Part shown: in pieces, positions 4,630 through 6,929 of the stretch
How positions within the stretch are numbered: position 1 is the stretch's first letter
Layout: every line of letters begins with the position of its first letter
Virus record (IMG/VR): IMGVR_UViG_3300037502_000354
Location: 1 to 31,419 of that record
Source: a virus
Length of the DNA stretch: 31,419 nucleotides
Reading direction: 5' to 3' (one strand)
Notes under the pieces: generated by a model
The model's input: the letters and a program-made list of their open reading frames with translations, nothing else
Told to the model about the DNA's origin: nothing
Database searches by the model: none
Translations under genes and position numbers: made by a program

Positions 4630-4989
4630 TTAACCCGTTTTGTAAAGCGCCGCAACAGATTCTTGGGCTTTTTTAAGCTGCAACTCATATCGCTCTGTGC
4701 TGATCTTCAGTCTCTGCGCTATGGAGTGAGGTCGATGATACGGATACTGTATATACGTTGCCTTTAAGACTGCCCGCTGGATCTCAGGCAATCCCCGCAC
4801 GATGTTTTCTACCGCCTCCCCTGCTACCGAATCAGGTTCGTACTTAGCCTCTTCGCCCTCAAAAACCTCCGTGGACTGGTAATTACCCTCCGCGCTTGCG
4901 GCCTGGGTTTGGACTGGTGGCCCGATATGCCCGTGGGCGCACCAGAAAGCCCAGTTCTTTAGGAGGCTTTCCGTTTGTCTGGAAACCAT
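4630..4989 (-). CDS. Antiterminator Q-like / sigma region 4-like regulator
   Basis: This 119-residue protein has an N-terminal LLKNWAFWCAHG segment and the core VENIVRGLPEIQRAVLKATYIQ, followed by a helix-turn-helix SIAQRLKISTERYELQLKKA. This layout (Trp-rich start, LPxxQRxVL, then an HTH) fits phage antitermination proteins of the Q/DUF1133/RinA-ArpU type and resembles sigma-70 region 4. It overlaps the preceding glycosyltransferase by 31 nt. Its role would be to license late transcription. A promoter followed by a terminator, the usual target of such factors, lies about 1.5 kb upstream in the same operon. The family is inferred from pattern and could instead be a sigma-like activator. Confidence 0.6.
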   Translation of the reverse strand: MVSRQTESLLKNWAFWCAHGHIGPPVQTQAASAEGNYQSTEVFEGEEAKYEPDSVAGEAVENIVRGLPEIQRAVLKATYIQYPYHRPHSIAQRLKISTERYELQLKKAQESVAALYKTG

Positions 4990-5651: not shown

Positions 5652-6259
5652 TTTTCGTACTCCCCAACCCTATGCCCTGCCTCCACCCTTAAAAACGGAT
5701 TGGTCATCAGCGGCATATCACATGTATAAAAACGTAACTTGTAGTTCCACGAAACATAAGAAAGGCTTATCTGGTCTTGGAATGACCACTTCTCATGCTC
5801 CTGCCACCACAAGGTGTTTAAATCGTCGCCCCAGTCGTTTCTGCGGCAGATGATACCGGAGGCCCAGAGACCCCAATTGGAAGGCATACCGGCCTTTTTA
5901 TAGGCTTCCCCTTGGGCCATGATCGGCTCACCGTGGTACTTCCGCATATCGTGGGACTCTTCTGCCTCGTCGTAGAGACAGTTACGCCAGGGATGTTTAA
6001 ACATTGCCCAACGGTCTTTAGCCTGATCTACCATATATTCCGCAAAGAACCGGCTAAACACCCGTATAGATCCGTCTATCCAGATTGTGTAATCGTAATC
6101 CCTGGGAGGGTTTAGCTTGTACCACCGAGAGTCCATCCGCGCATTGCGCTGGCCCTTGGGCTCTGTGAATAACTTAAAGTCGCAGGCAATAGACTGCTTG
6201 GGAAACTCTTTTACGGGGTCATAATCCCCGACGATTGCGCTATAGACTAGGACGCGCAT
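5639..6259 (-). CDS. DUF616-type glycosyltransferase-like protein
   Basis: This 206-residue protein starts MRVLVYSAIVGDYD, then WYKLNPP, DYDYTIWIDGSIRV and FKHPWRNCLYDEAEE. Later segments are WGLWASGIICRR and WSFQDQISLSY. These are the ordered motifs of the DUF616 family (TOD1/MUCI70-like), regarded as glycosyltransferase-related. The ATG at 6259 lies 20 nt inside the winged-helix gene upstream. Together with the next glycosyltransferase it makes a two-enzyme glycosylation pair. Substrate is unknown. Confidence 0.8.
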   Translation of the reverse strand: MRVLVYSAIVGDYDPVKEFPKQSIACDFKLFTEPKGQRNARMDSRWYKLNPPRDYDYTIWIDGSIRVFSRFFAEYMVDQAKDRWAMFKHPWRNCLYDEAEESHDMRKYHGEPIMAQGEAYKKAGMPSNWGLWASGIICRRNDWGDDLNTLWWQEHEKWSFQDQISLSYVSWNYKLRFYTCDMPLMTNPFLRVEAGHRVGEYEKCPQ

Positions 6260-6452
6260 AGACGAATTCCATCTTCGGCCCCATGCCTGGGGTGAGTCTT
6301 TCCTTTTTTTCCCGCGTCAGCTTTTGTTTCTTGACTAGAGCCAGCAGGCAGATCTTTACAGTTCCCGCTGGCAGACCTGTTATCTCCGAGATCTGTCGTG
6401 CAGTCAGCGGCCCGCCCTCTAGCACCCTAAGTATGTTTTCGTTATGTGTCAT
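6240..6452 (-). CDS. Winged-helix transcriptional regulator
   Basis: This 70-residue protein is mostly a winged helix: ENILRVLEGGPLTARQISEI, then TGLPAGTVKICLLALVKK and a wing of basic residues. It resembles MarR/ArsR-like or Rrf2-like DNA-binding halves. I choose the ATG at 6452 because GGGAGA precedes it by about 3-4 nt; longer in-frame starts would run through the terminator hairpin at 6462-6486. It is the first gene after that terminator, so its expression probably depends on readthrough. It may regulate its own leader or the modification genes that follow. Confidence 0.75.
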   Translation of the reverse strand: MTHNENILRVLEGGPLTARQISEITGLPAGTVKICLLALVKKQKLTREKKERLTPGMGPKMEFVYARPSL

Positions 6453-6461
6453 AAGTCTCCC

Positions 6462-6486
6462 AAAAAAAAGCCCGCACGAAGCGGGC
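6462..6486 (-). terminator. Rho-independent terminator before the winged-helix gene
   Basis: On the minus strand there is a perfect 6-bp GC stem (GCCCGC, loop TTCGT, GCGGGC) followed by eight T. The T tract ends one base before the GGGAGA ribosome site of the winged-helix gene. Transcription arriving from the replication operon, or from the promoter near 6602, should largely stop here unless antiterminated. Confidence 0.85.
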
Positions 6487-6595
6487 AAACCCCTGTGAAG
6501 GGGGGAGGGAGGAGACAACAAACCCTAAGTTTACCCGCAAAAAGTCGGGTGGCAGCACGGCGCAGATGCCCGTATGGTCAGAAGGCTACCACCCT
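6487..6595 (-). promoter_or_regulatory. Structured 5' leader with competing hairpins
   Basis: Read as minus-strand RNA, the leader begins with a 10-bp helix: GGGUGGUAGC (6594-6585) pairs with GCUGCCACCC (6556-6547). It contains one G-U pair that works only in minus-strand RNA. The 3' arm also supplies four bases of a second hairpin, ACCCG (6550-6546) with CGGGU (6537-6533), so the two are mutually exclusive. Then come a CCCC/GGGG hairpin (6503-6500 with 6493-6490) and the terminator. GUCUCC at 6516-6511 is complementary to the GGAGAC ribosome site at 6460-6455. This is a plausible attenuator, riboswitch or antiterminator recognition region; folds were found by eye. Confidence 0.55.
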
Positions 6596-6601
6596 GAGAC
6601 A

Positions 6602-6631
6602 ATTATACATAACATTATGAGAGATCCACAA
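6602..6631 (-). promoter_or_regulatory. Leftward sigma-70-type promoter
   Basis: The minus strand has a perfect TATAAT at 6607-6602, with a weak -35 TTGTGG at 6631-6626 and an 18-bp spacer. Transcription would start near 6595 and produce the structured leader that ends at the terminator at 6462. The promoter overlaps the last codons of the nuclease gene. The arrangement resembles a lambda pR'-type late promoter with an immediate terminator. Confidence 0.5.
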
Positions 6632-6929
6632 CCTTGTGCGTCCAGCGGTTATTTTGTTTGCGCCATCCGATAACCCATAAGTGCCAGGAGGCTCTCCGAA
6701 CCTGGGACAACAATTCGGCGTTTTCTATCTTTTTGATCCGCGCACCCATGTTGCTGTAACTGGTCGCCTGCACTCCCAGGGTCAGATCCCCCTTGAGGGC
6801 CACTAGGTCTATGAACCCAAACAGATCCTTGCGGATGTTCGCCCCTGGTATCCACCTCTCGACTACCTCTACTGTCCACCCCTCGTCCCGCAGGAGTTTT
6901 AGGGTTAGTTGTGTTGGGCTTGTTGCCAT
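6615..6929 (-). CDS. PD-(D/E)XK nuclease-like protein
   Basis: This 104-residue protein has TLKLLRDEGWTVEVVERWIP, then NIRKDLFGFIDLVALKGD and LGVQATSYSN, followed by a basic helix. The order (helix with E, then FIDLVAL, then V-Q-A-T) matches small PD-(D/E)XK folds such as Hjc/VRR-NUC-like resolvases, with Asp in FIDL and Gln in the QxT position instead of the common ExK. That substitution occurs in some family members but leaves catalysis uncertain. An AGAGGAGAT ribosome site precedes the ATG at 6929. It is the last gene of the replication operon and might resolve recombination intermediates. Confidence 0.6.
   Translation of the reverse strand: MATSPTQLTLKLLRDEGWTVEVVERWIPGANIRKDLFGFIDLVALKGDLTLGVQATSYSNMGARIKKIENAELLSQVRRASWHLWVIGWRKQNNRWTHKVVDLS

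Follow-up and report, generated by a model that had tools for sequence, protein, structure and literature searches.

Our analysis reveals that the non-coding leader at about 6595-6453 on the minus strand can form two mutually exclusive helices of similar energy, an intrinsic terminator and an antiterminator, and that the latter is significant against shuffled sequences in several classes of homologous leaders and is kept with changed letters between two homologues. The leader is best read as a cis-acting transcription attenuator preceding a regulator operon, a reading that we hold with somewhat more belief than doubt. The switch is probably real and so far undescribed, and the attenuator itself is of a known kind; among open-licence papers, no phage attenuator of comparable kind was found.

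The leader and the operon behind it

The window, that is the whole stretch of DNA analysed, is the 31,419-base virus record IMGVR_UViG_3300037502_000354 (a virus of bacteria), with about 50% GC. Structural genes occupy its right part, and its middle contains the genes for replication and regulation; the minus strand holds most of the genes. The leader is flanked by a nuclease-like gene upstream (6615..6926, minus strand, 104 aa) and by a small winged-HTH gene, the first behind it (6240..6452, minus strand, 70 aa). The function of the former is assigned by reading only (alignments A1 and A4), and Pfam and PHROG searches gave zero matches for it. The latter has weak Pfam winged-HTH matches and homologues behind other leaders; as a sole query the window protein retrieved zero relatives, and a wide winged-HTH alignment yielded no stretch usable for searching. 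There follow a TOD1/MUCI70-type glycosyltransferase (E 4.5e-11) and then another protein that, on reading alone, looks glycosyltransferase-like; in the same operon the protein of 4630-4989 has weak matches to sigma-70 region 4 and to a 'transcriptional activator', which makes it late-activator-like or Q-like. The initial annotation had placed the leader at the gate of a modification module; the two glycosyltransferase-like genes agree with this, but the first gene encodes a winged-HTH protein and the operon also holds a gene resembling sigma-70 region 4 and late activators.

Such an operon brings to mind lambda pR', where a promoter, a short leader RNA (6S) and the terminator tR' stand before a phage operon and read-through depends on Q. 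The layout in the window is alike, with a promoter, a short RNA and a terminator preceding a phage operon that includes a Q-like or activator-like gene, and isolates bearing the nuclease have Q genes nearby. A leader of this type, read through by means of a Q-type protein, is nevertheless extremely improbable here, since the Q-like gene (4630-4989) lies downstream of the terminator and the lambda scheme needs no RNA antiterminator, which the window has.

Leader homologues and their classes

The glycosyltransferase encoded downstream, the nuclease and the winged-HTH proteins served as queries to collect homologous leaders. Leaders in the same slot and with the order terminator, SD and ATG are present in about 28 viral contigs, where they fall into seven sequence classes. 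Class A consists of the window and five contigs (L002-L006) with one common leader, and class B of 14 contigs with 12 distinct leaders; class C is formed by L025 and L026, class C' by L125, class D by L027, class E by L115 and the MAG contig L191, and class F by L226, L228 and L231. The terminator is equally placed in all classes, and in the complete leaders the SD and ATG of the winged-HTH gene stand close behind it. As for isolate phages, no similar DNA was found, and the leader is absent from those carrying a relative of the nuclease. An exact pattern derived from the first hairpin (P0, described below) had zero matches in viral contigs, and a scan with a class B pattern returned only already-known contigs.

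Several contigs differ around this slot. For example, L121 has the winged-HTH gene and lacks the terminator leader, and a tRNA-Met (CAT) gene lies in the slot between nuclease and winged-HTH genes at L122:1816-1889, L127:1816-1888, L208:1816-1889 and L209:769-842. In L020 (L020:798-1000) the nuclease is 98% identical, yet the leader is absent behind it and an epimerase-like frame overlaps the stop codon; the leader together with the winged-HTH gene therefore looks like a removable cassette. L025, L026 and L125 have an insertion that separates the nuclease gene from the leader, a small Cys-rich frame of the CxxC type. In L191, filed as an Akkermansiaceae MAG, the class E leader belongs to a phage-like early region (L191:3000-3700), where the winged-HTH frame is truncated and the large gene next to it seems to be unrelated; the contig may therefore be mis-assembled or hold a prophage remnant. 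The class B leader at L038:2813-2939 looks mosaic: its CU tract is that of one SD subgroup and its SD that of the other.

Elements of the leader RNA

The initial annotation had listed a TATAAT box, a 10-bp helix, a second and a third hairpin, a terminator, and a pairing of GUCUCC (6516-6511) with GGAGAC (6460-6455), and all of these are present at the positions given. All elements described here are on the minus strand. The putative promoter has its -10 element TATAAT at 6602..6607, with a start expected near 6595; it is called by consensus, TATAxT being found at the equivalent position in nearly all homologous leaders and a clear -35 element being absent. The first hairpin, P0 (6547..6594), consists of a 10-bp helix of 6594-6585 with 6556-6547, containing a single U.G pair (6588.6553), and an inner hairpin. 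In L002 the P0 helix is kept and its 3' half is nearly identical to that of the window, and two further changes allow pairing on the minus strand alone, as G.U, which supports the earlier argument from the G-U pair for an RNA of this sense. P0 is found in class A only. Inside it, the five-codon frame GUG GUA GCC UUC UGA (6592-6578) was considered as a leader peptide and rejected, as it has no spaced SD; the counterpart frame in L002, GUG GUG GCC UCC UAA, has the same length and keeps the stop. Likewise an open frame in L007 was rejected as a leader peptide, since indels interrupt it elsewhere in class B.

The second hairpin, ACCCG (6550-6546) with CGGGU (6537-6533), spans 6533..6550 and was proposed as the competitor of the long helix. 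It is present in the sequence and does overlap P0, but it is weak, is absent from the MFE structure and is outcompeted by the far stronger 10-bp helix; if formed, it would occlude the strand 6538-6529, whose decisive alternative pairing, given below, had been missed. P3, a hairpin of 6503-6499 with 6494-6490 (6490..6503), is part of the MFE structure, and class B keeps its stem with varied sequence. The intrinsic terminator (6462..6486) pairs 6486-6481 with 6475-6470 and continues into U8 (6469-6462). Among the candidates listed for the window, its stem (6486-6470) is the sole perfect GC stem with U8, and it is located between the putative promoter and the first gene, directly preceding the ribosome site GGGAGAC (6455..6461). 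Folding of the minus strand, a check proposed with the initial annotation, gave a leader more stable than its dinucleotide shuffles (z -2.8, 2/200), with z -3.3 for the first hairpin alone and z -3.2 for the RNA that stops where the terminator 5' arm ends.

A predicted antiterminator helix competing with the terminator

The strand GCGGGUAAAC (6529..6538) can form 10 pairs, one of them U.G, with GUUUGCCCGC (6481..6490), which contains the terminator 5' arm GCCCGC; shuffle tests of this helix in the window give p 0.0015 to 0.015. Antiterminator and terminator are mutually exclusive, since both need the 5' arm 6486-6481. When the RNAs are cut before the terminator 3' arm, the 5' arm is captured by an upstream strand in the window, in L002 and in classes B, C and E, and the result is a branched structure closed by the antiterminator helix. 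Forcing the ON and OFF states gives energies that lie at most about 7 kcal/mol apart, in most cases less than 5, with the sign going either way. The attenuator layout proposed earlier is thus supported, and it is strengthened by this previously unlisted pairing of 6538-6529 with 6490-6481 and by the homologous leaders.

The corresponding helix in L002, GGCGAUGCUUAG with UUAAGCCUCGCC, has 11/12 pairs and letters that largely differ from those of the window, though the two leaders align. Class B has GUGGUG.GCUA with UAGC.CGCCAC, and class E an 11-bp helix of GUCCGGUGUAA with UUACGCCGGAC, where a single C is replaced by U in L191, which changes a C-G pair to U.G. Compensatory change is clear between the window and L002 and one-sided between L115 and L191, too few independent pairs to carry it for the leaders as a whole; it rests mainly on the former comparison because the classes are not mutually alignable. 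Within class B the MAFFT alignment misplaces P3, hence pairs were not counted on it. There the antiterminator 5' strand is invariant and adjoins a variable stretch. Within the invariant block GTGGTGTGCTATTCT the letters TGTGCTATTCT, which L017 and other leaders of the class have inside that strand, look like an extended -10 element; the invariance could thus reflect a promoter constraint as well as pairing. A second promoter at TGTGCTATTCT would yield a shorter RNA lacking the antiterminator strand in these leaders.

In purine-type ON riboswitches, too, a branched fold is closed by a helix that has its 3' strand in common with the 5' arm of the terminator. The window leader has the same sharing of a strand, and its P0 3' half is nearly the same in L002, as might be expected if P0 or the branched fold were the sensor in a new class of ligand- or protein-sensing leader. 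We regard such a sensor as very improbable: P0 is confined to class A, and unlike the purine-type switches the window leader shows neither a conserved junction core nor an Rfam match. At the gathering score no Rfam family was matched, the weak matches include no riboswitch, and there is no sequence-conserved aptamer core common to the leader classes. The initial suggestion of a riboswitch is accordingly not supported, there being no known ligand either.

Significance of the antiterminator against shuffled leaders

A duplex test measured how strongly, in energy, the terminator arm pairs with the leader upstream of it, relative to shuffled leaders. With the arm alone, p was 0.0015 in the window and 0.006 and 0.031 in class E, while L002, class B and L125 were not significant because their helix runs into the terminator loop. 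The results consequently depend on how the arm is defined. With arm and loop, p was 0.015 in the window, 0.12 in L002, 0.013-0.037 in class B, 0.003 and 0.029 in class E, 0.18-0.26 in class C, 0.09 in L125 and 0.67 in class D; seven leaders combined gave p 1.6e-4, the classes being partly dependent in that their surrounding genes are homologous. The loop had entered the test only after the arm-alone outcome was seen, and therefore a single automatic rule (75 nt upstream; target of 4 nt + arm + loop) was run on every terminator in all fetched loci. Under this fixed rule p was 0.007 in the window, 0.027 in L002, 0.023-0.056 in class B and 0.007 and 0.047 in class E, and neither class C (p 0.27) nor class D (p 0.47) was significant alone; the 32 other terminators, serving as controls, had a median of 0.39 with 3% at p <= 0.05, as by chance. 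In class F no antiterminator helix was seen in the fold. The antiterminator is thus supported in classes A, B and E.

These figures bear directly on another reading, with an ordinary promoter and a terminator that protects the winged-HTH operon against transcription coming from upstream, the alternative helices being due to chance. Intrinsic terminators are indeed common between phage genes, the helix is non-significant in classes C and D and missing in class F, and the class B values vary with the arm definition. However, the combined p and the fixed-rule test with its controls, together with the changed letters of the L002 helix and a fold z of about -3, make this reading distinctly unlikely.

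The CU-rich tract and the resemblance to RF02278

The CU-rich tract GUCUCCU (6510..6516) is complementary to the SD, and similar tracts occur in other classes. In the full-length MFE structure it pairs with 6461-6455 in the window, and likewise with the SD in L002 and class B. The proposed pairing of the ribosome site therefore stands as a predicted structure, but the tract is not specific: its own SD ranks 14/51 among gene starts, 13 other starts pairing at least as well. Sequestration of the ribosome site by the CU tract is plausible, but this ranking does not support a sequestration specific to its own SD.

The 3' half of the leader resembles RF02278, the Betaproteobacteria toxic sRNA family, with full-length but sub-threshold matches of 31 bits in the window, 29.4 in L002, 27 in L017 and 27.2 in L125, against a gathering cut-off of 50. 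Only the terminator hairpin is formed, the first family hairpin having broken pairs, and class E leaders have no match; the window leader thus resembles the family and falls short of membership. RF02278 RNAs are short, form two hairpins and carry CU-rich stretches with complementarity to ribosome sites, and overexpression of ncS27 slows growth (PMC5688073); Bordetella S17 is processed to a short form starting near its C/U-rich loop (PMC11722255). In both the ncS27 group and S17 a CU-rich anti-ribosome-site stretch is followed by an intrinsic terminator, as in the window, but the window leader has a gene directly behind the terminator and an antiterminator.

The main product might accordingly be a short terminated phage sRNA that acts in trans, its CU tract binding to mRNAs of phage or host at their ribosome sites, while the winged-HTH gene is expressed only by leaky read-through. 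The conserved CU-rich tract, which finds good pairing partners among many of the window's SDs, the matches just described, the trans action of the RF02278 relatives (PMC5688073, PMC11722255) and the second promoter-like element of class B, which would give just such a short RNA, are all in line with this. We nevertheless think it unlikely: the scores of 27-31 stay well below 50 with the first hairpin unformed and class E unmatched, the winged-HTH start is always directly behind the terminator, which a trans-acting RNA does not need, and the antiterminator is left unexplained.

The two roles could also be joined. In Listeria, the 5' leader Rli51-mpl is predicted to fold as terminator or antiterminator, and premature termination frees a short trans-acting RNA (PMC11394854). 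It is like the window leader in its terminator/antiterminator layout and a precedent for an attenuating leader that also yields an active sRNA, although it belongs to another organism, has another sequence and has a trans sRNA as a known partner, and no homology is claimed. The OFF state in the phage might block the winged-HTH operon and release an anti-SD RNA imitating host RF02278-type translation-repressing sRNAs, until a signal, which in class A might be sensed by P0, shifts the balance to the antiterminator and the operon with its late-activator-like gene is switched on; we consider such a bifunctional switch improbable.

A model for the proposed attenuator

For the attenuator that we prefer, transcription would start near 6595, and P0 would form as the RNA emerges. 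If 6538-6529 then pairs with 6490-6481, the polymerase would read into the winged-HTH, glycosyltransferase and late-activator-like genes; if the antiterminator is not formed, the terminator would end the RNA at about 6462. The choice might be set by a ligand, a protein, an RNA in trans or simply the kinetics of folding. In a read-through RNA refolded to the terminator form, the freed CU tract (6516-6510) may pair with the SD and damp translation. That termination is regulated and that SD pairing matters is what we infer, and the anti-SD helix is the less certain part. Against the attenuator stand the non-significance of classes C and D taken alone, the missing helix in class F and the close relative L020, which has no leader.

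The timing of phage transcription is usually explained by proteins such as N, Q and sigma factors. If the attenuator is true, leader switches before a regulator operon that includes a late-activator-like gene would bring an RNA checkpoint into this timing. Moreover, given the likeness to anti-SD sRNAs of the host, one may ask whether phage leaders, once terminated, affect translation as well.
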